From assembly GCA_026393835.1 (NCBI GenBank), contig JAPKZK010000038.1:124001-188000 (forward strand): 64,000 bases of DNA. The letters are read 5' to 3'. This stretch comes from Candidatus Aminicenantota bacterium (lineage in GTDB: Bacteria; Acidobacteriota; Aminicenantia; UBA2199). Below the pieces are notes generated by a model that worked only from the letters and a program-made list of their open reading frames with translations, was not told the DNA's origin and ran no database searches. The number at the start of each line of letters is the position of its first letter. Positions within the stretch are counted from its first letter, which is position 1. Made by a program: the position numbers and the translations under genes. Below, one piece after another: positions 2,309 through 60,804 of this stretch.

Positions 2309-3643
2309 TTAACCACGTTTAAAGCCGGTATAATTCTTGAAATAGGTTTTGATATTCTCCTTGTCGGCAAGGTAGATAGGTATATTCATAATGGTAATTC
2401 CGTCACCCACAGAAACTTTTTCCAGTGGAGCAGCCGATACCACTACCCCAAAATTCCCTCCCGTTAATTTCAAATAATGAACTAGATTCCTATATTGCTT
2501 ACTCTTCAACGATAACGCTGCCTTACATTCGATGGGAATCATTACTCCAAATTCAGGGACATCCAATACAAAATCGACTTCAATATCCGAATTATTTCCC
2601 TTTTTCCACGTCCCTACCGCATACCGCGCCGCTTCTCCTTTCACCAGGTTCAATAAAACCGCATTTTCAAAAAGACCGCCCAGGGGAATCCGAAGCGCCG
2701 GATCAATGGTTTCAAGAATAGAAACCGACGGCACAGCTACGGAACGTTTCCGGTTAACTACCCCAATGTCATGTAAATACCGCTTCGGCAGAAAATTCGA
2801 TCTCTGGGGATCAAATGAACACTGCTCTACTTCAAGAATAATATGCCACCCTTTCAGTGCTTCAATGATTTTTTTAGCCTGGTACTTGGTGGTATCGAAA
2901 TGGGTCAGTTTGGAAGGACTCCCGATAAAATTGGCCACGGCCTGGACAACATGCCGAAAAAGCTCAGGCTGCTGCGCTTCCCTTCTGCGAAAATCTTCCT
3001 CGAGCCCGGCCATAATTTCATCGATAATATCATAATACGGCTTCCCGTTTTGATAAGCAATGACGGCTTCGGGATATCCCCCTACCAGCATATATCGATC
3101 GAATAAGTCAAGCATCATCTTATGCCTGGATGGGGCCACCTGGTCCGGCGCGGAACGGAGAAAATCCGCCAATTCCTCTCCTTTCACATATTGGATAAAT
3201 TCAGAAAAATTAAAAGTGAATACGGTTATACTACGGGTTCTGCCTACCGGGATACGGGTATCTTCGGAAAAAAAACGGTTCATGGAAGAACCGGTTAATA
3301 TCACCTGGATTTCAGGCCAATCCTCTTTAAATGATTTGACATAATTTGCCAGATTCTTACTTTCCTGGGCTTCATCGAAGAAAAGAATCGAATTCTTCGC
3401 CAATCCATATTGGTCATACATCAATGTTTTGAAATCGGAAAAATCCCCTGTTTCATCGATCTGCCGACGCAGTTTAAAGTCCTTTTCAAGATCAAAGCTA
3501 AGATAGGGTAAAGGTTGAGATTGCAGGACATGATTGACCATATACGATTTTCCCACCTGCCTGGCGCCCTCGACGATGATCACATTGTTCCGGGATTTAT
3601 CCGCCAACAAGGCATACAGTTTATTCTCAATTTGCCGTTTCAT
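2309..3643 (-). CDS. AAA ATPase of the AAA_14/DUF4143 family
   Basis: 444 residues. Walker A is GARQVGKS at residues 26-33 and Walker B is ILFFDEAQ at about 86-93; LTGSS is the sensor-like strand near 117. The C-terminal third is the DUF4143 half, with a PD-(D/E)xK-like pattern (EVDFVLDV..IECKAA). Such proteins are common in accessory regions of bacteria and archaea and their role is not settled. The gene is single, with convergent or unrelated neighbours. No Shine-Dalgarno site precedes the ATG; a TTGACA box and a -10-like hexamer end 6 nt before it, so a leaderless mRNA is likely. Confidence 0.9.
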   Translation of the reverse strand: MKRQIENKLYALLADKSRNNVIIVEGARQVGKSYMVNHVLQSQPLPYLSFDLEKDFKLRRQIDETGDFSDFKTLMYDQYGLAKNSILFFDEAQESKNLANYVKSFKEDWPEIQVILTGSSMNRFFSEDTRIPVGRTRSITVFTFNFSEFIQYVKGEELADFLRSAPDQVAPSRHKMMLDLFDRYMLVGGYPEAVIAYQNGKPYYDIIDEIMAGLEEDFRRREAQQPELFRHVVQAVANFIGSPSKLTHFDTTKYQAKKIIEALKGWHIILEVEQCSFDPQRSNFLPKRYLHDIGVVNRKRSVAVPSVSILETIDPALRIPLGGLFENAVLLNLVKGEAARYAVGTWKKGNNSDIEVDFVLDVPEFGVMIPIECKAALSLKSKQYRNLVHYLKLTGGNFGVVVSAAPLEKVSVGDGITIMNIPIYLADKENIKTYFKNYTGFKRG

Positions 3644-3678
3644 GAAATAGATTTACCATTTCCTGCCTTTTTTGTCAA
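3644..3678 (-). promoter_or_regulatory. Predicted leaderless promoter of the DUF4143 ATPase
   Basis: On the reverse strand TTGACA lies at 3678-3673, then 17 nt, then TAAATC at 3655-3650, then 6 nt to the ATG at 3643. The -10 box is weak but the geometry matches the other leaderless starts in the window. Confidence 0.5.
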
Positions 3679-11817: not shown

Positions 11818-12765
11818 TTACCCGGAGCGTAAGGAATTTATTTCTTCTTTTGACAGGCCGGTCAGTTTTGAAATCAATTGGATACTTAATCCTTCTTCCA
11901 ATGATTTTCTTGCCATTTCAAGGGCTTTATTTTTTTCCCCTTCAGTAATGCCTTCCGCTTTGCCTTCCGCTATACCTTCCGCTATACCTTTCGCTTTGCC
12001 TTCCTCCATACCTTCTTGTTTGGCGTATTCCAAATCAAATTTTATAGTCTGGGCAATGCTGGCTTCATAGTGCAATTGTTCAAGGTAATACTTATAAGCC
12101 CTTAATTCATCACCGCTTAAATAAATCTCTTTCAGTTTTTCCCGCGCTTCATCCAGCCCTTTGGCTTTGAATTCTTTCTTGATTTCACTGTTTTTCAAAA
12201 AGTATATCCACTCATCCAGGGGGTCGCGGGCGATATCATTAAATCCATTGACTTTGATTATATAATGATCCGGGAAAATCGCCGTTACGGTCTCCCGGGA
12301 AAACATTTTTTTCTGATTAGCCGACAATTGTAAAATATCTCTATTATGCAGCCCCAAAAAGGTTGTGGTTCCATGATAGACGTAATCGGCGCCCTGGCCC
12401 AGGTCAAAATACACGACGCTCACGGTAATCACTTTCTTTACTTCCGAATAAGTATCGCCGCTCTTGATATGTTCTACGGTTACTTTGCACGCATTGTACA
12501 GTATCTTGTAAAAGTAATCCAGTTCACGGGTATTCTGTATCTCGACGATAATCAATTGGTCTTTGATATCCCTCACCAGGATATCCACCCTGTTGAATTT
12601 GTCGTCGGAGGTTTCTTTATTCCCTTCGCTTTCCAGTATATCGATGATCTTGATGTCTTCTTTGAGTAATTCGCTCAGGAAGCCTTCCAGTATCCCGAAG
12701 TTTGCTTTGCTTCTCAGGATTTTCTTTATTGCCCAATCAAACCGAATATGTTGTAAGTTTTCCAT
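11818..12765 (-). CDS. Rpn-family PD-(D/E)XK nuclease (PF12784-like)
   Basis: 315 residues. The N-terminal domain has the family order: DWAIKKILRSK, GFLSELLKEDIKI, KFNRVDILVRD (D of the nuclease core) and LIIVEIQNTRE (the E-x-Q signature). The C-terminal part has GMEEGKAKGIAEG-type repeats and ends in a small helix-turn-helix (LISKLTGLSKEEINSL). Rpn proteins promote RecA-independent recombination or act as phage-defence nucleases in other bacteria; older annotations call them transposases. No partner gene. No Shine-Dalgarno site; the -10 box ends 9 nt before the ATG. Confidence 0.9.
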   Translation of the reverse strand: MENLQHIRFDWAIKKILRSKANFGILEGFLSELLKEDIKIIDILESEGNKETSDDKFNRVDILVRDIKDQLIIVEIQNTRELDYFYKILYNACKVTVEHIKSGDTYSEVKKVITVSVVYFDLGQGADYVYHGTTTFLGLHNRDILQLSANQKKMFSRETVTAIFPDHYIIKVNGFNDIARDPLDEWIYFLKNSEIKKEFKAKGLDEAREKLKEIYLSGDELRAYKYYLEQLHYEASIAQTIKFDLEYAKQEGMEEGKAKGIAEGIAEGKAEGITEGEKNKALEMARKSLEEGLSIQLISKLTGLSKEEINSLRSG

Positions 12766-12803
12766 GATGGTGATATTCTACAAAAAAACTCGATTTTTTG
12801 CAA
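12766..12803 (-). promoter_or_regulatory. Predicted leaderless promoter of the Rpn nuclease
   Basis: Reverse strand: TTGCAA at 12803-12798, 17-nt spacer, TAGAAT at 12780-12775, 9 nt to the ATG at 12765. No purine-rich RBS in the gap. Confidence 0.6.
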
Positions 12804-12869: not shown

Positions 12870-12898
12870 TTGACAAATCGCTCTTTTCTATTTACAAT
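12870..12898 (+). promoter_or_regulatory. Predicted leaderless promoter of the HEPN/MNT remnant
   Basis: TTGACA at 12870-12875, 17-nt spacer, TACAAT at 12893-12898, then 8 nt to the ATG at 12907. No RBS fits in the gap. Confidence 0.7.
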
Positions 12899-12906
12899 AT
12901 ATCCTC

Positions 12907-13017
12907 ATGGCAACAAAAGAAGAACTGATTGAGTATTGGCAGAAAAGTGCGGCGGCTGACCTGCGAATAAAGGAGTTTTATCAATGGCTGATAGTCAAGC
13001 TGCAATCAGAAGAATAA
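12907..13017 (+). pseudogene. HEPN-domain protein cut to 36 residues
   Basis: Reads MATKEELIEYWQKSAAADLR then IKEFYQWLIVKLQSEE and a stop. The first 20 residues match the start of HEPN proteins (ExxEYWxKSAxxDL), which normally run to about 130 residues; the rest is gone. The short frame overlaps the MNT gene start by 34 nt and contains that gene's AAGGAG site. It may now act only as a leader cistron for the MNT gene. In intact systems HEPN is an RNase toxin. Confidence 0.65.
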
Positions 13018-13301
13018 TAAGAACTTATCTGAAAGTGATCGCTGATAATAATATAAAGATCGAAAAGGCGTATCTTTTCGGCTCTTACGCCCGGGGAACA
13101 TATCGAGAGGACAGCGATATAGATATTGCCATCGTATCCAGGGATTTTTCCGGTGACCGCTTTGCCGATAGACGCCGTGTTGTGCCTTTAAGAAGAAAGA
13201 TAGACAGGAGACTGGAACCTATCCCTTACCTACCGGAAAATTTTAAAGAGAACGACCCGCTGGTGATAGAGATTCTTAAGAATGGTATAGAGATTAAGTA
13301 G
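12984..13301 (+). CDS. MNT-type minimal nucleotidyltransferase
   Basis: 105 residues. The motif LFGSYARGTYREDSDIDIAIV at about 32-52 is the GSx10DxD nucleotidyltransferase signature of MntA-like antitoxins. These modify (AMPylate) a HEPN toxin partner. AAGGAG lies 8 nt before the ATG. Here the HEPN partner upstream is truncated, so this is an orphan half-module. The C-terminus (PIPYLPENFKENDPLVIEILKNG) is typical. Confidence 0.85.
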   Translation: MADSQAAIRRIIRTYLKVIADNNIKIEKAYLFGSYARGTYREDSDIDIAIVSRDFSGDRFADRRRVVPLRRKIDRRLEPIPYLPENFKENDPLVIEILKNGIEIK

Positions 13302-14954: not shown

Positions 14955-15160
14955 GAAACTAGAATCCTTCGCGTCTTCTTCGCGTCCCTTCGCACCTGCG
15001 TACCTTTGTGGCCATTTTCATGGCAATTCCTCATGATGCACGCCTCGCCCGGAGACTATGATAATTTTTGCCACCAAGACACCAAGTCGCCAAGTTTTTT
15101 TTATAATAAACCTCTTGGTGTTCCTTGGTGTCTTCGTGCCTTGGTGGCTATTTTCATGGT
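14955..15160 (+). repeat. CTTCGCG arm plus full CTTGGTG inverted repeat
   Basis: 14955-15025 iterates CTTCGCGTC and ends CTTTGTGGCCATTTTCATGG. 15062-15160 is a complete element: left arm GCCACCAAGACACCAAG.., centre TTATAATAAA, right arm CTTGGTG words ending GGCTATTTTCATGG. Arms pair imperfectly over about 30 bp. Confidence 0.8.
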
Positions 15161-15423
15161 AGGCTGCGGCGACGGCGCGGCAATTTCAAGACAGTTTCAA
15201 GTAAATTTCAACTTTTTCAACTTTTGAAATTTCATTTCAACAGGGACCAAATATTGAAATCCACTCATTTTTTGAGTATAATATTTACCTGTTAAGAATG
15301 CAGCGCGTATTTAATCTATCTAGAACATGGCCTTTTTTTTCGGCGTTTTCGGAGAAATTGGCATAACAGTAATGCATAAGGAGTAAGGCCCATCCAGTTA
15401 CCCGGTATTTCAGGGAATTTAAT
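15161..15423. other. Intergenic region upstream of the pyruvyl transferase
   Basis: Contains TTGAAATTTCATTTCAA near 15221-15242 (self-complementary TTGAAAT/ATTTCAA) and AT-rich sequence. No gene. I see no confident promoter for the gene at 15424. Confidence 0.4.
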
Positions 15424-20858: not shown

Positions 20859-21487
20859 TTATAAAAGGCGGTGACGGATTTCTTTTTATAAACCCGTTCA
20901 ATTTCCCGGATCAAACCGGTATCAAGTCCGGGCAGTTCATCCATATCCAATCGTAATTCGTCTTGCAAGCATACAGCCATTTCTTTGCTGTTGACATCAT
21001 TTATCATTGCCAACCTGTCACAAATGGCTTTTTCTTTCGAGGCAATTAAAAAGGGACCGGTTTCATCGGGAATACGTTCGATGCCGACGGAATATTTCGA
21101 ATTCTCCAGGTATTTATAGGAAAAGGTCCCCAACGGTGTTTTGAAAATCTTATTACGTTAATTTGTCATACTGGTGATTTCTTCGACTTTTTCGGGGATC
21201 AAGCCCCAGTAAGAGAGGGCATATTCCAGGGATATATAAGAGGGGCCGTAAATCAAGTTGGCCAGGGAGCGAAGATTGATTCGCGATCCAAAATCCGGCG
21301 ATAATACATAAAGACCCTTTTTAACCTGGATGATTTCCTTTTTCTTTATCATTCGGCTGATCTTGTCCCTGGGGGAACTGTAGCTTTTTAAAAGGTCCAT
21401 AAGGTACTGATAATCAAAGGGAAATTTGGGTAATTGCCACAGCAAATATTGCGAATTCTGACCAGGATGTCTATTCACATTCGACAT
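20840..21487 (-). pseudogene. AbiEi-like antitoxin split by an in-frame TAA
   Basis: From MSNVNRHPGQNSQYLLWQLP the sequence follows the AbiEi transcriptional-regulator antitoxin: winged-helix part (SYSSPRDKISRMIKKKEIIQVKKGLYVL), SLEYALSYWGLIPE, then a TAA at 21160-21158, then RNKIFKTPLGTFSYKYL..LIASKEKAICDRLA in the same frame. One base change would restore 215 residues. The ATG at 21487 is chosen because a leaderless-type promoter ends 7 nt upstream; the longer frame from TTG 21523 has no support. AbiE modules block phage growth; this one is dead unless the stop is read through. Confidence 0.75.
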
Positions 21488-21523
21488 ACCGGTTATTTTA
21501 CCGGAATTTATTAAAAAATTCAA
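21488..21523 (-). promoter_or_regulatory. Predicted leaderless promoter of the AbiEi gene
   Basis: Reverse strand: TTGAAT at 21523-21518, 17 nt, TAAAAT at 21500-21495, 7 nt to the ATG at 21487. It overlaps the end of the preceding remnant gene. Confidence 0.6.
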
Positions 21524-21830: not shown

Positions 21831-21859
21831 TTGAAAAATACTTCTCATTCATATACAAT
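21831..21859 (+). promoter_or_regulatory. Predicted leaderless promoter of the MNT-HEPN pair
   Basis: TTGAAA at 21831-21836, 17-nt spacer, TACAAT at 21854-21859, 9 nt to the ATG at 21869. No RBS. Confidence 0.65.
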
Positions 21860-21868
21860 AGTAACGCA

Positions 21869-22225
21869 ATGAAAAATATATCGGTTTTAAAGAATGCTGC
21901 CGTGCTTAATATTCTGGAAGATATCAGGGCCGAGATAACCGCTTCCCTTGGGGCTGTGGTGAAAGAGATCATTTTATACGGTTCTTATGCCCGCAATGAG
22001 CAGACCGAATTCTCCGATATTGATATTGCGGTACTTATCGATGGTGAGAGAGGCAATATTAATGCAATTAGAGATAAATTAGCGGATATCAAAGTCGATC
22101 TCTCATTGAAATACGATGTGGTCATCTCGATAATAGTCAAAAAGTACCGGCAATATGTAACAAGAAAAGAGTTTGTTCCTTTCTATGCAGTTATTGAGCG
22201 AGAAGGTATTTCATTACATGCATAA
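21869..22225 (+). CDS. MNT nucleotidyltransferase antitoxin (MntA-like)
   Basis: 118 residues from MKNISVLKNAAVLNILEDIR. Signature LYGSYARNEQTEFSDIDIAVL. A longer frame exists from an upstream ATG (21803) but the promoter lies inside it, so 21869 is preferred. MntA-type proteins AMPylate and silence the HEPN RNase. The stop overlaps the HEPN start by 8 nt. This is the only complete MNT-HEPN pair in the window. Confidence 0.85.
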   Translation: MKNISVLKNAAVLNILEDIRAEITASLGAVVKEIILYGSYARNEQTEFSDIDIAVLIDGERGNINAIRDKLADIKVDLSLKYDVVISIIVKKYRQYVTRKEFVPFYAVIEREGISLHA

Positions 22226-22982: not shown

Positions 22983-23084
22983 TTTCTCTGCCTATTTTTT
23001 TTCCCCAGTTTTCACTCACCACTCACAACTCACCACTCTACCAATCATCCTATATCTCCAGTCATTGGTCATTAACAATTAACC

Positions 23085-23240
23085 ATTAACAATTGACAAT
23101 TAACAATTATCCCTTTTCCGGTTCATTAACCGGGAATCGGGCAGACACGGGGGCCTGCCCCTACATGGAGGGATTCGTGATTGGTTCACTGCCTCATGCC
23201 CTTCAATTATTCCTGGCTGTTCGATTCGGCTTCTATTTGA
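23085..23240 (+). repeat. About 140-bp direct duplication, copy 2
   Basis: Preceded by iterated ATTAACAATTAACC words (23069-23105). Same order of landmarks as copy 1 about 380 nt upstream. No gene lies between the copies, only the GGATGA element. Confidence 0.75.
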
Positions 23241-27472: not shown

Positions 27473-27481
27473 TGGTATAAT
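27473..27481 (+). promoter_or_regulatory. Extended -10 element, predicted leaderless start
   Basis: TGGTATAAT at 27473-27481 ends 6 nt before the ATG at 27488. No good -35 at 17 nt (TTGACC at 27444 is 26 nt away), but an extended TGn -10 can act alone. Confidence 0.45.
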
Positions 27482-27487
27482 CCAACG

Positions 27488-28531
27488 ATGAGAAAAATTT
27501 TGGTTTTGTTTAATCCCTCCTCCGGCAAAGGCCGCGCCTTAAAACTAAAGGAATCTATCGCACACTGCCTGGAAAACAACGGTCTGGACCTGGATTTTAT
27601 CGTTACCGAAAGCGAAACCCACCTGCGACGCCTGGCTGCATCGGCAGCGCAAACCGCGGGTAAATACGACGCCATCGTGGGCGTGGGCGGCGATACGACT
27701 TTTAATATTATCGCCGCTGAAATTCTAAAACTCAGGGAAACACCTCCTTCTGCGCCTGCTCCTATTGTGGGCATGATCGGTACGGGTTCCGCCAACGATA
27801 TCACCCGGGGCCTGGGTATGGAATCTGTCGAAACTGCCTGCCGGGCCATTATAAACGGCAATATTAAAAAAATGGATGTGGGCTGCCTGAAAATATTCAA
27901 AAATCCCCCACCGCTTCAACCGCTTCTACCTCTTAAACCGCTTCAACCGCAACCGGGACCGGAAACTTTTTTCTTCCTGGGCACGGTAAGCCTGGGCCTG
28001 GGCGTCTTTGTCAACCGATTCGTGGAAAATTTTCAGCAGCGACATAAAACCCTCTCGAAATTGAAACCTTTCGATCAATTACTGCCTTCTCTGTATGCTA
28101 TTTATGATTCCTTCTCAAGAAAAAAAATACCCCTTTCAATGGAAATGGCATTCCATGATCCGGAAAGCAATGAAAATATCATTCAACCGGTGGAATTCTC
28201 TCTGCTGGTTTTTTTAAATACGCCATTTTATGCCAACGGTTTGAAACTGGGCCAGGATAACGGCATGTTTGACGGGTTATTGGACTGCTTTATCCTTCGT
28301 ACAAAATCATTTTATAAAACCCTCCGGGAAGGGATACGCCTCAGCCGTAACAATAGCCGCCAAGGCACAAAGGCGCCAGGAAACACCAGGAGGGTTATTC
28401 TTAAAAATTCCTGGTATAAAATATCCGCAAACAAGGCCGTGGATATCCAGGTAGACGGCGAAATTATCCGGGGGATAAGAGAAATGGAAATCTCACTGAT
28501 CCCCGGCGGCCTGGATGTGTTTTCCGTCTGA
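27488..28531 (+). CDS. Diacylglycerol/sphingosine kinase-family lipid kinase
   Basis: 347 residues from MRKILVLFNPSSGKGRALKL. The nucleotide-binding motifs are NPSSGKG and VGVGGDTTFNIIAAEI (GGDG-type, here GGDTT), plus GSANDITRGLG. The C-terminal part has the DGLLDCFI strand-loop (DGLLD) and the end VDIQVDGEIIRG found in YegS/DgkB kinases. They phosphorylate diacylglycerol or similar lipids in the membrane. A longer frame from 27356 runs through a repeat and the promoter and is not used. A proline/leucine-rich insert (PPLQPLLPLKPLQPQPGP) near residue 140 is unusual. Confidence 0.85.
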   Translation: MRKILVLFNPSSGKGRALKLKESIAHCLENNGLDLDFIVTESETHLRRLAASAAQTAGKYDAIVGVGGDTTFNIIAAEILKLRETPPSAPAPIVGMIGTGSANDITRGLGMESVETACRAIINGNIKKMDVGCLKIFKNPPPLQPLLPLKPLQPQPGPETFFFLGTVSLGLGVFVNRFVENFQQRHKTLSKLKPFDQLLPSLYAIYDSFSRKKIPLSMEMAFHDPESNENIIQPVEFSLLVFLNTPFYANGLKLGQDNGMFDGLLDCFILRTKSFYKTLREGIRLSRNNSRQGTKAPGNTRRVILKNSWYKISANKAVDIQVDGEIIRGIREMEISLIPGGLDVFSV

Positions 28532-28552
28532 AATGAATTTAGCCGCTTCTCT

Positions 28553-28608
28553 CTTCCCCCCCCTTGGTGTTTCTTTGTGCCTTCGTGCCTTTGTGGCTAT
28601 TTTCATGA
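28553..28608 (+). repeat. CTTGGTG/CTTTGTG word repeat
   Basis: CCCTTGGTGTTTCTTTGTGC, CTTCGTGCCTTTGTGGC and TATTTTCATG. Single arm between the lipid kinase and the lytic transglycosylase. Confidence 0.7.
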
Positions 28609-28614
28609 CAGCTA

Positions 28615-28644
28615 TTGATTTATTCATTTTAATTGTTATATAAT
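28615..28644 (+). promoter_or_regulatory. Promoter of the lytic transglycosylase, short leader
   Basis: TTGATT at 28615-28620, 18-nt spacer, TATAAT at 28639-28644, 10 nt to the ATG at 28655. Leader of at most 4 nt and no Shine-Dalgarno site. Confidence 0.55.
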
Positions 28645-28654
28645 TGTTTTCGTT

Positions 28655-29317
28655 ATGAAGAAAAACAAAAAAAGTAACGTGAAAAAAATTGCCTTTTTAC
28701 TCGTTACCCTTCTATTAATCGGACTAACAGGGCTATTCATCGGGCTGGTGGATTTTAATCGTGAGTACGAAAAAAAGAAGGAAAATCTTAATATATTGGC
28801 CGGCGAAGTGTTCCGTTTGGAGCAAACCATCGATCGCAATGACCAGAAAATCAAGGCCTACGATTTATTGGAATTCAAAGTGAATGCGTTTTCCACCCGT
28901 TATTCTCTTTTTTCCCGGATACTGGACAGCGTCTACCACAAGAGCCGCAAATACGGGTTCCACCCTGACCTGGTATTGGGAATCGTCAAAGTGGAGAGTG
29001 ATTTCGATCCCAATGCGGTATCCTTTAAAGGGGCCTACGGGCTGATGCAAGTGAACCTCCCGGTATGGCGGGAAGAGCTGGCAATCGATGAAAACCGCAT
29101 CTTTGATGTGGACTATAATATCGACCTGGGGCTGCGCATTTTAAAACTGTACTTCGATGAAACCAAAGGGAATCTTAAATTGGCCCTGCATCTCTATAAT
29201 AACGGGTATCTATACAACAATACGTCTTACGCGGATAAAGTGGGCTCCGCGGTTCTTGCTTTCAGACCCTCCGCCCAATTCGACCTCACCCTGGGCAATC
29301 CGGGGTATGGAAAATAA
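28655..29317 (+). CDS. Lytic transglycosylase (SLT domain), membrane-anchored
   Basis: 220 residues. A short basic cytoplasmic start, one membrane helix at about 12-34, a coiled linker (REYEKKKENLNILAGEVFRLEQTI) and an SLT domain: GIVKVESDFDPNAVSFKGAYGLMQV with E as the catalytic glutamate, then HLYNNG. It cuts the glycan backbone of peptidoglycan to anhydromuropeptides. Single gene. The start is supported by a promoter ending 10 nt upstream. Confidence 0.9.
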   Translation: MKKNKKSNVKKIAFLLVTLLLIGLTGLFIGLVDFNREYEKKKENLNILAGEVFRLEQTIDRNDQKIKAYDLLEFKVNAFSTRYSLFSRILDSVYHKSRKYGFHPDLVLGIVKVESDFDPNAVSFKGAYGLMQVNLPVWREELAIDENRIFDVDYNIDLGLRILKLYFDETKGNLKLALHLYNNGYLYNNTSYADKVGSAVLAFRPSAQFDLTLGNPGYGK

Positions 29318-37320: not shown

Positions 37321-37349
37321 TTGACTTTTTTATCCCTTTCTATTATTGT
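37321..37349 (+). promoter_or_regulatory. Predicted leaderless promoter of the sirtuin gene
   Basis: TTGACT at 37321-37326, 17 nt, TATTGT at 37344-37349, 6 nt to the ATG at 37356. The gap TTGACC has no RBS. Confidence 0.6.
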
Positions 37350-37355
37350 TTGACC

Positions 37356-38192
37356 ATGAAAAATTCCAATCAAGTAATCGAGAAAGCCGCCCTGCGTATC
37401 CGCGAGGCAGATGCAATATTAATTTGCGCCGGGGCAGGCATCGGCGTCGATTCCGGTCTCCCGGATTTCCGCGGCGACCAGGGATTCTGGAAAGCGTATC
37501 CCCCCTTTGCCAAACTGGGATACAGTTTCACCGAAATGGCGAACCCCCAATGGTTTGAACGCGATCCACACCTGGCCTGGGGTTTCTACGGCCACCGTTT
37601 GAATCTATACAGGAAAACCATTCCGCATAAAGGGTTCGAAATCCTCCTCCGCTGGGGCAAAGAAAAACCCGGGGGCTATTTCGTTTTCACTTCCAACGTG
37701 GACGGCCAATTCCAAAAAGCCGGGTTTAACGAAAACCAGATCAACGAGTGCCACGGTTCCATTCACTATATGCAATGTTCCTCTCCCTGCTGTGAAACCA
37801 CCTGGTCTGCGGAGAACATTCATATTGAAGTGGACGAAGAGACCATGAAAGCCAGCGACCCGCTGCCCAAATGCCCGGCTTGCGGCCGCGTGGCCAGGCC
37901 CAATATATTAATGTTCGGCGATTGGAATTGGATTCCCACGCGCACCCAGGATCAGCAGTTCCGGTTTCACTATTGGTTGGAACAGAACCGGGGCGACGCC
38001 ATTGTTATTGTCGAATGTGGGGCCGGGACCGGGGTTCCCACTGTACGGATTACCTCCGAAAGCATCGTATCAAAATACAAAGCCGCATTGATCCGCATCA
38101 ATGCCCGGGAGTCCTTTGTCCCCCCGGGCCAAATCGGTTTACCTATGGGCGCGCTGGAAGCCTTACTGAGCCTTCTGCCGCATTCTCTTTAA
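37356..38192 (+). CDS. Sir2-family NAD-dependent protein deacylase
   Basis: 278 residues from MKNSNQVIEKAALRIREADA. GAGIGVDSGLPDFRG at 26-40 is the NAD loop, TSNVDGQF at 112-119, catalytic H133 in NECHGS, and zinc-site cysteines C141, C145/C146 and CPAC at 173-176. The final part (IIVECGAGTGVPTVR, RINARE) is standard. Removes acyl groups from lysines using NAD, or ADP-ribosylates. Its 3' end overlaps, in antisense, a copy of the C-terminal codons of the MFS transporter. Confidence 0.9.
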   Translation: MKNSNQVIEKAALRIREADAILICAGAGIGVDSGLPDFRGDQGFWKAYPPFAKLGYSFTEMANPQWFERDPHLAWGFYGHRLNLYRKTIPHKGFEILLRWGKEKPGGYFVFTSNVDGQFQKAGFNENQINECHGSIHYMQCSSPCCETTWSAENIHIEVDEETMKASDPLPKCPACGRVARPNILMFGDWNWIPTRTQDQQFRFHYWLEQNRGDAIVIVECGAGTGVPTVRITSESIVSKYKAALIRINARESFVPPGQIGLPMGALEALLSLLPHSL

Positions 38193-38213: not shown

Positions 38214-38247
38214 AATATAAGGGCGTTTTTTTTTGACTACCATGAAA

Positions 38248-38335
38248 ATAGCCGCGAAGAACGCGAAGGACCGCTAAGAAAAAGAGAAAAAATCCTTGGT
38301 GTCTTGGTGCCTTGGTGGCAAAGTGTTCATGATCT
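38248..38335 (+). repeat. CGCGAAG/CTTGGTG mixed inverted word repeat
   Basis: Left arm CATGAAAATAGCCGCGAAGA then CGCGAAGGACCGC; right arm CCTTGGTGTCTTGGTGCCTT then GGTGGCAAAGTGTTCATG. Ends match CATGAAAATRGCC and its complement. It lies inside the segment flanked by the sirtuin duplication. Confidence 0.75.
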
Positions 38336-38379
38336 CCGGGCGACGGCCAGCCGTCATGATTGGCTGCCCCTTTTTCTTC

Positions 38380-38740: not shown

Positions 38741-38882
38741 GCGGCCAGGTGGCCAGGTCCAATATATTAATGCCCGGGAGTCCTTTGTCCCCCCGGGCCA
38801 AATCGGTTTACCTATGGGCGCGCTGGAAGCCTTACTGGGCCTTCTGCCGCATTCCCTTTAACATCCATTTCCTGGCCAGTAT
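38741..38882 (+). pseudogene. Internally deleted second copy of the sirtuin gene end
   Basis: 38741-38772 resembles the sirtuin codons at 37882-37913 (with a few changes), joined through AATG directly to a copy of 38100-38213. About 186 nt of the sirtuin are missing at the joint. The last 51 nt (38832-38882) still serve, in antisense, as the C-terminus of the MFS gene. Confidence 0.85.
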
Positions 38883-47930: not shown

Positions 47931-47959
47931 TTGAAATCGGCGGGTTTTTCGTTTACAAT
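47931..47959 (+). promoter_or_regulatory. Predicted leaderless promoter of the XRE gene
   Basis: TTGAAA at 47931-47936, 17 nt, TACAAT at 47954-47959, 6 nt (ACGGGC) to the ATG at 47966. Confidence 0.7.
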
Positions 47960-47965
47960 ACGGGC

Positions 47966-48253
47966 ATGCGAGTAAAAACAGAACTTAAGAAAAAATTGCG
48001 TAGGGACTTTGGTGTGCGCATGCGGCAATTGCGTGAAACCCAGGGCCTGACCGGGACTAAAATGGCAGGGATGCTTCAAATCGACCGGGGCACCTTAAAG
48101 AGGCATGAAGACGGCCAGTGGATGCCGGAGTATCCGATTTTGCTAAAGATATCCAACGCCTTTGATGTTTCGATGGATTGGCTCCTGTTCAATAAAGGGC
48201 CGATATTTTATAAGCAAAAGGATCTCGAGGCAAAAGCAGCCGCCGCAAGGTGA
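47966..48253 (+). CDS. XRE-family transcriptional regulator
   Basis: 95 residues from MRVKTELKKKLRRDFGVRMR. HTH: QLRETQGLTGTKMAGMLQIDRGTLKRHEDGQWMPEYPILLKISNAFDVSMDWLLFNKGP. Same layout as the XRE protein at 32707. Stop TGA overlaps the start ATG of the TIR fragment (TGATG), so the regulator and the broken effector are coupled. A frame extension upstream to 47807 would contain the promoter and is rejected. Confidence 0.8.
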   Translation: MRVKTELKKKLRRDFGVRMRQLRETQGLTGTKMAGMLQIDRGTLKRHEDGQWMPEYPILLKISNAFDVSMDWLLFNKGPIFYKQKDLEAKAAAAR

Positions 48254-50587: not shown

Positions 50588-50596
50588 GGAAAGACT

Positions 50597-50800
50597 CTGG
50601 CCCACGAATTACACGAATTTGCACGAAAAAAACAAGGTCCACAGATTACACTGATTTTCACAGATATTTTTTCCGCTCTTCCGCTCTTCTTCGCTTCCTC
50701 GCTTCCTGTTTTACCTTCATCATTCATCATTCATCATTCATCATTCTATATAAAGACTTGTCCACGTATGGGCGATTACACGGATTAACACTGATGAAAA
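50597..50800 (+). repeat. Cluster of word repeats (CACGAA, CACAGAT, ATTCATC)
   Basis: 50597-50625: CCACGAATTACACGAATTTG then CACGAAA. 50634-50667: CCACAGATTACACTGATTTT then CACAGAT. 50716-50748: iterated CATTCATCATT. 50757-50795: CCACGTATGGGCGATTACAC then GGATTAACACTGATGAAA. All belong to families seen elsewhere. Confidence 0.7.
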
Positions 50801-50845
50801 AGAAAAGGGGGCAGGGATCGGGAGTCGGGGGTCGCCCTCGCCCGT

Positions 50846-51044: not shown

Positions 51045-51072
51045 TTGAAATCGAATCTTTTTCATATATAAT
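51045..51072 (+). promoter_or_regulatory. Predicted leaderless promoter at 51080
   Basis: TTGAAA at 51045-51050, 16 nt, TATAAT at 51067-51072, 7 nt to the ATG at 51080. No RBS. Confidence 0.65.
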
Positions 51073-51079
51073 TATAGGC

Positions 51080-51376
51080 ATGAAAACATTAGCAGAAAAG
51101 ATAGCCGGTTTATCATATTACCGTGACACTCACCCGGAAGTGGAAAACGTCCAGGTAAATCTATTAAGAAAAGCAGGACCAGGTAAAAGATTTTCCATAA
51201 CGCTTTCTTTATCGCAAGAGATGATCGCTTTATCCAAACAGGCTTTGAAAAAAGCTAATCCCGGTTTAAGCGATAATGAGCTAAAAATTCTTTTCATAAA
51301 GAATTGTTACGGCGCCGGCGCAGCGGAAAAAGTAAAAAAACGTATGATAGAAAAGGGCATGTATGCGGATCAATGA
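51080..51376 (+). CDS. Small protein paired with a nucleotidyltransferase
   Basis: 98 residues: MKTLAEKIAGLSYYRDTHPE, SITLSLSQEMIALSKQALKKANPGLSDNELKILFIKNCYGAGAAEKVKKRM. It precedes and overlaps by 14 nt the nucleotidyltransferase gene, in the order antitoxin-toxin. The central helix-rich part (LSDNELKILFIKNCYG) is typical of small partners of DUF6036-like proteins. Role inferred. Confidence 0.6.
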   Translation: MKTLAEKIAGLSYYRDTHPEVENVQVNLLRKAGPGKRFSITLSLSQEMIALSKQALKKANPGLSDNELKILFIKNCYGAGAAEKVKKRMIEKGMYADQ

Positions 51377-53334: not shown

Positions 53335-53363
53335 TTGACTATCGATTCAAAATTGTATATGAT
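53335..53363 (+). promoter_or_regulatory. Predicted leaderless promoter of the DUF3592 gene
   Basis: TTGACT at 53335-53340, 17 nt, TATGAT at 53358-53363, 6 nt to the ATG at 53370. It settles the start against an upstream ATG at 53283. Confidence 0.65.
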
Positions 53364-53369
53364 ATGTTT

Positions 53370-54290
53370 ATGACAGATCAAACTTTATCAACTACTCCCC
53401 AAGCGGGAATGTTTTCGCAGCGGATCAGCCGCCTGGTTGCACCGCCGCGATGGGTGCCGCTGCCAACGGCCTGCGCTGCCCTGACAGGTCTTATCGGCTT
53501 CGTCGGCGCCATCTTTTTCTCTTTCGGTATGCTTTTTATGTGGGTATTCGGGGCCGCGCTTCACCCGCTGGACGAGTGGCGCCTGTCCCGGTCTTATGCC
53601 GAAGCGCCGGCAATAATCGAATCGGTAAAGCCTACCAATGCCAATGTAAATAGAACACCGGTTTACGAATACCGCTTTCATTTTCAACCCGGGGACGGCG
53701 AACCGGTCAATGGAACATGTTATACCACCGGGCAAACCTGGCAAGACGGCGACCGCGTGGCAGCGCATTACCTGCCGGAAAATCCCGAAGTGGCCCGCCT
53801 GGAAGGCTCGCGGAGATCGATGTTCTCACCCTGGATAATTCTTTTTTTATTGATCTTTCCCACCGTGGGGCTTGCTTTTTTCGTCCCCCCCATCGTTTCC
53901 GGGGTGAAGAAAATAAAGCTCCTGCGTTCCGGGGAAATTACCGGGGCAACCAGCATCTCCTCAAGTCCTACCAATACCAGTATCAACAATGTACCGGTTA
54001 TGAAATATTCCTATGAATTCCGCGATCGCCTGGGGGCCATATACACGGGGGCATCCAAAGCCCTGCCTACGGAAAAAATCGGCGACGAAGCTGCTGAACC
54101 GATCCTCTATCTTCCCTCCAATCCGCAACAATCGATGCTGGTGGACGCATTACCGCTGAAATTACCGCTGGAAGTGGACGAAGAAGGGCATTGGCGCCAC
54201 CGCGGGTCCATCAAACCGGTGTTGCTTTTTCTCCTGGCCTGGAGCCTGGTGTTGGTCCACGTGGCTGTTGCTATCATCGTGCTTTTTTGA
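53370..54290 (+). CDS. DUF3592 membrane protein
   Basis: 306 residues from MTDQTLSTTPQAGMFSQRIS. Membrane segments near 35-65, 155-180 and 280-305. Two copies of the DUF3592 unit: APAIIESVKPTNANVNRTPVYEYRFHFQ..GDRVAAHYLPENPEVARL and ITGATSISSSPTNTSINNVPVMKYSYEFRD..PILYLPSNPQQSML. The ends face the outside as a beta-rich domain. Function unknown. Single gene. Confidence 0.8.
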   Translation: MTDQTLSTTPQAGMFSQRISRLVAPPRWVPLPTACAALTGLIGFVGAIFFSFGMLFMWVFGAALHPLDEWRLSRSYAEAPAIIESVKPTNANVNRTPVYEYRFHFQPGDGEPVNGTCYTTGQTWQDGDRVAAHYLPENPEVARLEGSRRSMFSPWIILFLLIFPTVGLAFFVPPIVSGVKKIKLLRSGEITGATSISSSPTNTSINNVPVMKYSYEFRDRLGAIYTGASKALPTEKIGDEAAEPILYLPSNPQQSMLVDALPLKLPLEVDEEGHWRHRGSIKPVLLFLLAWSLVLVHVAVAIIVLF

Positions 54291-56587: not shown

Positions 56588-56626
56588 TTGTCACTTCATC
56601 CGGCTCGGCGCCTTCAAGGCATGCTG

Positions 56627-56684
56627 CCTCCGGCGGCCAAAAACCCTTTTGAAAAAGGGTTTCTGGACTTCCTAAAACTTTTAT
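56627..56684 (-). repeat. GAAGTCCAGAAACC palindromic element, third copy
   Basis: On the reverse strand: AAAAGTTTTAGGAAGTCCAG, AAACCCTTTTTCAAAAGGGT, TTTTGGCCGCCGGAGGCAGC. Stem AAACCCTTTT/AAAAGGGTTT. It follows the lepB stop (56690) directly, a likely terminator. Confidence 0.8.
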
Positions 56685-56689
56685 TTATT

Positions 56690-57478
56690 TCAATATTTCT
56701 TAAATGTCCGGTTCCAACGGGTCTTGGTGAAGAAATTGGCAATGGTTTTAAAGAAATCTTTGACCTTATATATGAAACCGGTGGTCATGTACTCGTAAGA
56801 GGTGGATTCGTACGACCAATACACCCGCCAGGGTTTCCCGATGATATATTGCGCGGGAACCGGCCCCCAGGACCGGGAATCGAAACTGTGATTGCGGTTA
56901 TCCCCCATGCAAAAATAATGCCCCGGCGGCACCACGAATGCTTTACCGTTGGGAGTACCCATTAAAGAATCCCTGAACTGACGGGGAAACTCGGAATGCC
57001 AACGGAAAGGATTATCCGGCGGGAAGACATCCATGGGCGGCCTATCTTTAAACACCCGGTAAGGCTCTTGTATCAACTTACCATTTATATACACCAGGTC
57101 CCTATCGACCCGGATAGTGTCTCCCGGCAACGCAATTACCCGCTTTACCAGGTTTTTAGGTTCCATACCTTTATTGATTTCACTGGGACCGCTAAAGGTC
57201 ACGATCATGCCTCTTTCAATCACATGCTGGGGCAAAACCAACCGGTCCAGCGCCCCAAGGGATTGGGAATACGACACCTTGTCCACGAACAAATGGTCGC
57301 CCACCAGCATGGTGTCTTCCATGGAGGAAGAAGGGATGACATAGGTTTGCAGTAAAAAAGCATTGATGAAAAAAACAAAGATAACCACTTCGGCAATCAA
57401 TTCGATATATTCCCTGAATACCGTGACGCCCTGTTTTTTCTTTTCTTCGTGCTGATTTGTTTCTTTTTCTTCGTTCAT
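56690..57478 (-). CDS. lepB: Signal peptidase I
   Basis: 262 residues. One membrane helix (about 24-45), YVIPSSSMEDTMLVGDHLFVDK with catalytic S52, NLVKRVIALPGD with general-base K112, and VPPGHYFCMGDNRNHSFDSRSWGPV. Removes signal peptides outside the membrane. RBS not strong (GGGAAAGAATA). Length and motifs are normal. Confidence 0.95.
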   Translation of the reverse strand: MNEEKETNQHEEKKKQGVTVFREYIELIAEVVIFVFFINAFLLQTYVIPSSSMEDTMLVGDHLFVDKVSYSQSLGALDRLVLPQHVIERGMIVTFSGPSEINKGMEPKNLVKRVIALPGDTIRVDRDLVYINGKLIQEPYRVFKDRPPMDVFPPDNPFRWHSEFPRQFRDSLMGTPNGKAFVVPPGHYFCMGDNRNHSFDSRSWGPVPAQYIIGKPWRVYWSYESTSYEYMTTGFIYKVKDFFKTIANFFTKTRWNRTFKKY

Positions 57479-59991: not shown

Positions 59992-60020
59992 TTGAAATCC
60001 TCTTTTGATTCTGATACAAT
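59992..60020 (+). promoter_or_regulatory. Promoter of the YIP1-DUF2752 pair
   Basis: TTGAAA at 59992-59997, 17 nt, TACAAT at 60015-60020. An ATG follows 6 nt later (60027), the start of a predicted leaderless upstream ORF. Confidence 0.65.
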
Positions 60021-60026
60021 CCGACT

Positions 60027-60083
60027 ATGCATAAAAATCAGAAGAAGAACCCGTGTAAAGGAGGAAATAATGAACCAGGATGA
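60027..60083 (+). CDS. Leaderless upstream ORF overlapping the YIP1 start
   Basis: 18 codons, MHKNQKKNPCKGGNNEPG and a stop. It begins 6 nt after the -10 box, contains the AAAGGAGG site of the YIP1 gene and ends 14 nt inside it, in another frame. It may couple or limit YIP1 translation. Not confirmed as translated. Confidence 0.4.
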   Translation: MHKNQKKNPCKGGNNEPG

Positions 60084-60804
60084 TCATACCGAGCAGTTAC
60101 CGTCGCCCCCGGAGGAGACCGGCAGTATTCCCGAACCCCCAAAATTAATTGTTCCTTTTGAGGACCCTACCAAAGAGTTTTTCACCGGTCTTTTTGAGAC
60201 AATGAAGTTGGTTTTATTTGAACCTACCCGTTTTTTCAGGGATTACAAACTGGACGGTTCCATAGCAAGGCCCCTCCTGTTTGCGGTTATGATCGGGTGG
60301 ACCGCGGCAACTATCAGCGCCATGTGGGGAACCGTTGTCAACAAATCGATATTTAGCTACTTACAAGAGCGTATGCCCGACCTGGAGGGGGTCGATTGGG
60401 AGCGACTTGCATCCGGTGGGAGTTCGATGGATTTTGCATTTACACTGATCCTTGCGCCCATTTTTATCGTGTTCGGGTTATTTATTATTGCCGGCGTTTA
60501 TCACTTGTTTTTGATGATAGCAAAAGGCGCCAACAAGAATTTCGAAACGACATTTAACGTGGCGGCCTACGGCATGGTAACCCGTCTTGCGGAATTCATT
60601 CCCTTTTGCGGCAGTTTGATCGCATGGATTTATGGTCTGGTTTTAGCCATTATCGGCTTAGCCGGGGCCCACAAAACAGACAGTGGGAAAGCGGCCTTTG
60701 CCGTTCTCGCCCCTGTTGTGTTGTGCTGTTTTTGTATTTTAATGATTTTCATGATGATCGGGGCGACCGGGTTTATGGCAGTGCTTAATAAATCCCTCCG
60801 GTGA
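60070..60804 (+). CDS. YIP1-family membrane protein
   Basis: 244 residues from MNQDDHTEQLPSPPEETGSI. An acidic, proline-rich start then FEDPTKEFFTGLFETMKLVLFEPTRFFRDY, the typical YIP1 entry, and five membrane helices (LLFAVMIGWTAATISAM, LILAPIFIVFGLFII, MVTRLAEFIPFCGSLIAWIYG and others). Function unknown in bacteria. AAAGGAGG site. Stop overlaps the next start (GTGA). Confidence 0.9.
   Translation: MNQDDHTEQLPSPPEETGSIPEPPKLIVPFEDPTKEFFTGLFETMKLVLFEPTRFFRDYKLDGSIARPLLFAVMIGWTAATISAMWGTVVNKSIFSYLQERMPDLEGVDWERLASGGSSMDFAFTLILAPIFIVFGLFIIAGVYHLFLMIAKGANKNFETTFNVAAYGMVTRLAEFIPFCGSLIAWIYGLVLAIIGLAGAHKTDSGKAAFAVLAPVVLCCFCILMIFMMIGATGFMAVLNKSLR

Follow-up and report, generated by a model that had tools for sequence, protein, structure and literature searches.

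Leaderless expression from ordinary sigma-70 promoters very probably operates alongside Shine-Dalgarno (SD) initiation in the Aminicenantia genome studied here. The start codons in question sit where a standard sigma-70 promoter would be likely to begin transcription, and the genes behind them are predicted to be leaderless. For a canonical sigma-70 promoter, a gap of 6 nt between the -10 box and the ATG sets +1 on the A of the start codon; in the commonest form here, a -10-like box stands exactly 6 nt ahead of the ATG, whose A would be the first base of the mRNA. A ribosome, most likely an intact 70S particle by analogy with known leaderless mRNAs, would then start at the 5'-terminal AUG without an SD site, while SD sites would serve about half of the free-standing genes and somewhat over half of the operon-internal ones. 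We infer both the start of the transcript at the ATG and the path taken by the ribosome. Leaderless starts make up some 7-14% of free-standing genes (those at least 60 nt from the upstream gene) above decoys.

The window is the 64,000-nucleotide stretch at positions 124001-188000 of contig C172 in the source genome (G000), whose assembly holds 8.19 Mb in 212 contigs with a completeness of 91.7% and a contamination of 6.58%. Its ribosomal protein L1 finds its best match in an Acidobacteriota metagenome genome (91%), followed by Candidatus Aminicenantes genomes (73-78%). A search for a 16S gene found none, and the anti-SD sequence could thus not be read. Gene-based tests use our own signal-blind gene caller, which covered first 784 kb and then 1.47 Mb of the source genome, 391 kb of G014 (a genome of the same family) and 397 kb of G044 (a genome of the same class).

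Start codons in the window

The original prediction named ten starts with a -35 element, a -10 element close to the ATG and no ribosome-binding site, together with two similar ones. Each of these twelve coordinates is indeed an ATG on the implied strand with a -10-like box 6-10 nt upstream (gaps are read by eye and count the bases between the -10 hexamer and the ATG), and inspection of the sequence finds no SD site at any of them. AGGAGG-type sites are present in all four of the genes that had been offered for comparison (5472, 25118, 47225 and 60070). The twelve loci are:

2309..3678, minus strand: AAA_14/DUF4143 gene, start 3643; TTGACA 3673-3678, TAAATC 3650-3655, gap 6
11818..12803, minus strand: PD-(D/E)XK family gene, start 12765; TTGCAA 12798-12803, TAGAAT 12775-12780, gap 9
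12870..13017, plus strand: ATG 12907 with a frame of only 36 codons; TTGACA 12870-12875, TACAAT 12893-12898, gap 8
21158..21523, minus strand: AbiEi-like gene, 109 aa, start 21487; TTGAAT 21518-21523, TAAAAT 21495-21500, gap 7
21831..22225, plus strand: nucleotidyltransferase-domain gene, start 21869; TTGAAA 21831-21836, TACAAT 21854-21859, gap 9
27476..28531, plus strand: diacylglycerol kinase-domain gene, start 27488; extended -10, TATAAT 27476-27481, gap 6, without a good -35
28615..29317, plus strand: transglycosylase SLT gene, start 28655; TATAAT 28639-28644, gap 10
37321..38192, plus strand: SIR2 family gene, start 37356; TTGACT 37321-37326, TATTGT 37344-37349, gap 6
47931..48253, plus strand: focal helix-turn-helix (HTH) gene, 95 aa, ATG 47966; TTGAAA 47931-47936, 17-nt spacer, TACAAT 47954-47959, gap 6
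51045..51376, plus strand: 98-aa ORF without a Pfam family, start 51080; TTGAAA 51045-51050, TATAAT 51067-51072, gap 7
53335..54290, plus strand: DUF3592 gene, start 53370; TTGACT 53335-53340, TATGAT 53358-53363, gap 6
59992..60804, plus strand: mini-ORF at 60027 and SD-led Yip1-domain gene at 60070; TTGAAA 59992-59997, TACAAT 60015-60020, gap 6

Some of these entries need qualification. Of the ten main starts, two open no full gene: 12907 (36 codons) and 60027 (18 codons). The -10 box of 3643 (TAAATC) is weak and is not of the TAnnnT type, the SIR2 start admits an alternative -10 reading (TATTAT) that gives a gap of 9, and the AbiEi-like label of 21487 comes from a Pfam match below the curated cut-off. 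The frame at 12907 has no Pfam match. It is followed, in a different frame, by a nucleotidyltransferase-domain ORF at 12984, and the whole of 12870-13301 looks like a damaged two-gene module.

Homologous upstream sequence is found for 7 of the 12 starts, and the geometry is kept in the homologues. The protein starting at 47966 matches HTH_19, HTH_31 and HTH_3 in Pfam, and both promoter and gap are kept in a paralogue on contig C180 and in the copy in genome G003. G003 also keeps the gap of 9 at 12765, the gap of 7 at 21487 (as does a further copy in the source genome) and the -10 box and gap of the SIR2 gene, while the homologue of 12907 in G002 has the promoter with a gap of 9 instead of 8. 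At 53370 the G003 copy retains TTGACT, the -10 box and the gap of 6 despite base changes between them; the geometry occurs in two G003 copies (88% and 63% protein identity), and in the second of these it is equal on a different sequence. By eye, G003 keeps the promoter, -10 box, gap of 6, ATG and SD site of the 60027 locus as well. Among the loci compared, a search for homologous upstream sequence came up empty for 3643, 21869, 51080, 27488 and 28655, and in SIR2 orthologues from 17 other genomes of the family the geometry is mostly absent (by eye). The last 32 codons of the SIR2 gene also occur as a second copy, 94% identical, at 38763-38858, some 570 bp downstream.

Spacing between the -10 box and the ATG

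We scanned the sequence without gene calls for a -35 element starting with TTG (at least 5 of 6 matches), a spacer of 16-18 nt and a TAnnnT -10 element (at least 4 of 6 matches to TATAAT). In 1,467,940 bases of the source genome this gives 499 promoter-like sites, 48 of which have an ATG at gap 6, compared with a mean of 11.66 (sd 3.41) over gaps 12-40; the counts at gaps 7, 8 and 9 are 19, 14 and 7. Frames of at least 60 codons follow 34 of the 48 gap-6 ATGs and between 0 and 9 ATGs at each of the other 40 gaps. A strict pattern applied to the whole genome (TTGAC-N17-19-TANNNT-N6-ATG) occurs 166 times at gap 6 and 19 times at gap 13, a ratio of about 9, and the gap-6 version read backwards occurs 8 times. 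The original prediction would have been refuted by the lack of a genome-wide excess close to starts, and this test did not refute it. Its range of 6-9 nt needs correcting: genome-wide, the preferred gap is 6, and 7-9 are minor. A scan of the same type on the G014 sample (53 sites) gives a weak peak of 5 ATGs at gap 6, and one on the 397-kb G044 sample (65 sites) gives no gap-6 peak, with 1 ATG, both samples being too thin.

In the 34 genomes of the family, the source genome included, gap 6 outnumbers gap 13 by 1672 to 312, with all 34 genomes in excess and 33 of them at p<1e-3. The 26 genomes from other families of the class give 378 to 162 (21 in excess, 7 significant), and the 73 genomes from other classes of the phylum give 584 to 246 (50 in excess, 4 significant). 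The strong form of the gap-6 signal is a trait of the family to which the source genome belongs, and it is patchy elsewhere. Among the other classes, G063, G078, G116 and G118 have a strong excess (57/5, 69/9, 55/8 and 42/18 for gap 6 against gap 13), and most of the 73 genomes are without one.

Upstream of called free-standing genes in the source genome, -35/-10 pairs number 23 at gap 6 and 0-11 at other gaps. An unconstrained two-motif expectation-maximisation (EM) fit over 40 nt did not find the box in the source genome, where it drifted to a T-rich motif, and recovered TATAAT at gap 6 in G014 and G044; we replaced it by fits in which the -10 matrix was fixed and the stretch searched was 20 or 30 nt. 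Over 20 nt, the free-standing genes with a -10 box at gaps 6-9 (TA-led genes) are estimated at 59.9 of 632 in the source genome, 46.0 of 170 in G014 and 23.9 of 78 in G044, against shuffled means of 18.5, 8.9 and 5.5. For operon-internal genes the corresponding estimates are 6.3 of 247, 2.5 of 124 and 17.5 of 209, against 5.8, 0.2 and 7.0 after shuffling. A joint choice of start and signal (posterior >0.5) assigns leaderless starts to 71 of 650, 32 of 171 and 13 of 78 free-standing genes, whereas decoy models shifted by 4-14 nt claim 16-28 of 648-649, 9-16 and 1-2; subtracting the decoy means leaves a leaderless share of roughly 7% in the source genome, 11% in G014 and 14% in G044. Among operon-internal genes the joint fit finds 3 of 251, 1 of 127 and 8 of 213, and in the source genome it places SD sites at 53% of free-standing and 57% of internal genes. 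The signal lies on free-standing genes and hardly on operon-internal ones, as it should if leaderless genes come first or alone on their transcripts. G044 departs from this in part, because its operon-internal EM estimate (17.5 of 209) exceeds the shuffled one (7.0).

We call a gene confidently leaderless at a posterior above 0.9 (51 of the 71 genes in the source genome), using a model to which the -1 base does not contribute. A pyrimidine occupies -1 in 38 of these 51 genes and in 172 of 357 SD-led genes (p=4.9e-4). Simpler sets, drawn from the 632 free-standing genes of the source genome, consist of 39 leaderless genes, 219 SD-led genes and 309 with neither signal, 65 genes with a 4-base SD match being excluded; here the -1 pyrimidine is found in 28 of 39 and 106 of 219 (p=0.0087). 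Within this leaderless set the spacer is 17 nt in 35 of the 39 genes and the start codon is ATG in 38; absence of an SD site is part of the definition of the set, and hence no independent test genome-wide. The bias recurs in G014 (16 of 19 against 29 of 51 SD-led, p=0.049) and falls short of significance in G044 (5 of 6 against 17 of 30, p=0.37).

Could the boxes be a product of chance? AT-rich intergenic DNA would yield -10-like hexamers anywhere, and the first reading of the window selected its cases by geometry, picking those near ATGs; -10-like matches are in fact present at every gap, and even the decoy models pick up 16-28 of about 649 genes. Yet the peak is one nucleotide wide, gap 6 is in excess in 34 of 34 genomes of the family, and its strict count is 9 times that at gap 13. 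The gap profile refutes chance as a general account, which we rate as extremely unlikely, while single cases could still be chance. Another account accepts the boxes as real promoters and holds that other promoters upstream give leadered mRNAs, on which ribosomes would reach these starts by non-SD initiation behind a leader (S1-assisted, for example). Further -10-like sites do lie upstream in the AT-rich DNA, and the 309 of 632 free-standing genes with neither signal at the cut-offs used mean that such initiation may exist. However, a single-nucleotide spacing to the ATG and a pyrimidine at -1 would not be expected unless transcription began at the ATG, and the alignments of 47966 with its paralogue and its G003 copy begin at the -35 box; we regard this account as very unlikely. 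Taken together, the gap-6 peak, the -1 pyrimidine, the near-restriction to free-standing genes and the conservation in the homologues found support leaderless transcription in silico, in a genome that also uses SD sites; to that extent the original prediction is supported.

These starts have a practical side. Of the 48 gap-6 ATGs, the signal-blind caller took only 14 as starts; 11 more fell in a gene for which it chose a different start, and 23, some of them expected chance matches, lay in no called gene. Gene finders that ignore the gap-6 signal would misplace or drop such starts.

Gene content, repeats and mini-ORFs

Do leaderless starts mark toxin-antitoxin (TA) and other accessory genes as a special translation class? 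The window does hold several such genes (AbiEi-like, nucleotidyltransferase, HTH, PD-(D/E)XK and AAA_14), and leaderless genes have paralogues in their own genome somewhat more often (18 of 39, against 78 of 219 SD-led genes). Against this, the two sets do not differ in having a homologue in the sampled parts of two relatives (8 of 39 for leaderless genes, 47 of 219 for SD-led genes; 1.47 Mb), and neither median length (367 and 329 aa, p=0.20) nor codon typicality (0.357 and 0.353, p=0.89) differs. Housekeeping genes also occur in the set: seryl-tRNA synthetase, NeuB, Kinase-PPPase, a SpoU methylase and an FAD-linked oxidase all turn up with leaderless starts, in a scan of proteins picked by eye that speaks to inclusion and not to frequency. 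The mode of initiation also switches inside gene families, as in one HTH family where leaderless and SD-led copies are both present, and other members of the HTH and AAA_14 families have SD-type sites or short leaders instead (by eye). We consider a special class very unlikely, and the step from many TA-like genes to a distinct class is not supported. The accessory flavour of the window's leaderless genes seems to be a local matter. Where the promoter lies appears to decide whether a gene is leaderless, a status that switches within gene families and marks no functional class. Families with leaderless and SD-led copies in one genome are ready-made pairs for weighing the cost of a leader against its benefit.

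Several dispersed repeats lie in the window: 50595-50805, 15020-15165, 38225-38375, 28550-28620, 56620-56692 and 23065-23165 occur at 110, 41, 38, 33, 32 and 20 places in 1.47 Mb of the source genome, several of them are also in G002 and G003, and the 16-mer TCATCATTCATCATTC alone has 200 occurrences. A link between the dispersed repeat TCATCATTCATC and leaderless starts is a lead, with counts of 7 of 71 for leaderless and 10 of 357 for SD-led genes (p=0.0125, uncorrected, for one of four repeats tested).

The ATG at 60027 raises a different question. It opens a mini-ORF of 18 codons whose end lies 14 nt within the SD-led Yip1-domain gene that begins at 60070. For this locus we give even chances to a reading in which the promoter makes an ordinary mRNA for 60070 with a leader of 43 nt, the ATG at +1 being accidental. 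The strong SD site, the Yip1-domain gene behind it and the mere 18 codons of the mini-ORF all fit this reading; on the other side, G003 retains the -10 box, the gap of 6, the ATG and a mini-ORF that stays open to the same stop across a deletion of 21 nt (seven codons), as judged by eye in one pair. In 1.70 Mb, short frames that end 1-30 nt past the start of a called gene number 14 at gaps 6 and 7 together, compared with 1.93 per gap elsewhere (p=5.2e-5), yet gaps 20 and 26 reach 6 and 7; gap 6 alone has 8 (p=8.7e-4). When promoters are defined loosely, a codon control reaches significance (14 of 171 against 149 of 5315, p=5e-4); when they are defined strictly, it does not (8 of 86 against 73 of 1167, p=0.26). 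With this failure of the strict control, and with one conserved pair (on C203 and in G003) in which the mini-ORF frame is not kept, we reject the mini-ORFs as a proven class. Leaderless mini-ORFs that overlap SD-led starts, as at 60027 and 60070, are an unproven lead.

A 43-bp promoter pattern ending in ATGGATGC is found four times in the source genome and once in G003 (at most 3 mismatches). It precedes a cation P-type ATPase and ORFs that look unrelated (by eye). The near-identical promoters lie in five different or orthologous contexts (L135:3036-3078, L214:4979-5021, L314, L315 and L316), and at L314 a long ORF begins at the ATG of the promoter itself. A broader and doubtful idea, which we put forward tentatively, is that in Aminicenantia an AUG at +1 might load ribosomes even on SD-bearing mRNAs: leaderless mini-ORFs such as 60027 would carry ribosomes to the SD-led start that they overlap, and a portable promoter, some 43 bp long with ATGGATGC at its end, would put such a 5' AUG before unrelated genes. 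If true, this would parallel, independently, the coupled leaderless small ORFs known from mycobacteria.

Relation to known leaderless systems

We found no paper on leaderless genes in Aminicenantes in the literature searched, a body of work that most subscription journals lie outside. Within it, leaderless expression is apparently new for this lineage, and not a new kind of expression; likely leaderless expression with single-nucleotide spacing is now extended to a family of Aminicenantia. The closest precedent is the survey of Zheng et al., 2011 (PMC3160421), which, in the parts considered here, predicts TA-led genes in 3 of 3 Acidobacteria, at 13.3% on average, and does not name Aminicenantes. 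There, as here, TANNNT stands some 10-12 bp ahead of the start, and the genomes use SD sites too; our analysis differs in resolving the gap to one nucleotide and in testing it against shifted decoys and in relatives. Leaderless expression is also driven by a -10 box close in front of the ORF, at a distance of a few bases, in Deinococcus-Thermus (Zhong et al., 2025; PMC12340547). That work, as far as the sections considered here describe it, is experimental, covers about 30% of ORFs and includes cases without a -35, whereas ours is in silico, gives a lower share and uses scans that require a -35.

The mini-ORF lead has its own counterparts, each again taken from parts of the source. Mycobacteria have coupled small ORFs that are leaderless and whose stop overlaps the next start (Shell et al., 2015; PMC4633059), much as at 60027/60070 and in the short-frame cases, but the mycobacterial examples are founded on RNA-seq and ribosome profiling and ours on a weak statistical lead. 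The E. coli 5'-uAUG mRNAs (Beck et al., 2016; PMC4965119) carry a 5'-terminal AUG and an SD-led start on one mRNA, which is the arrangement predicted for 60027/60070; ribosome binding and expression were measured in E. coli, and our pair is a prediction from sequence.
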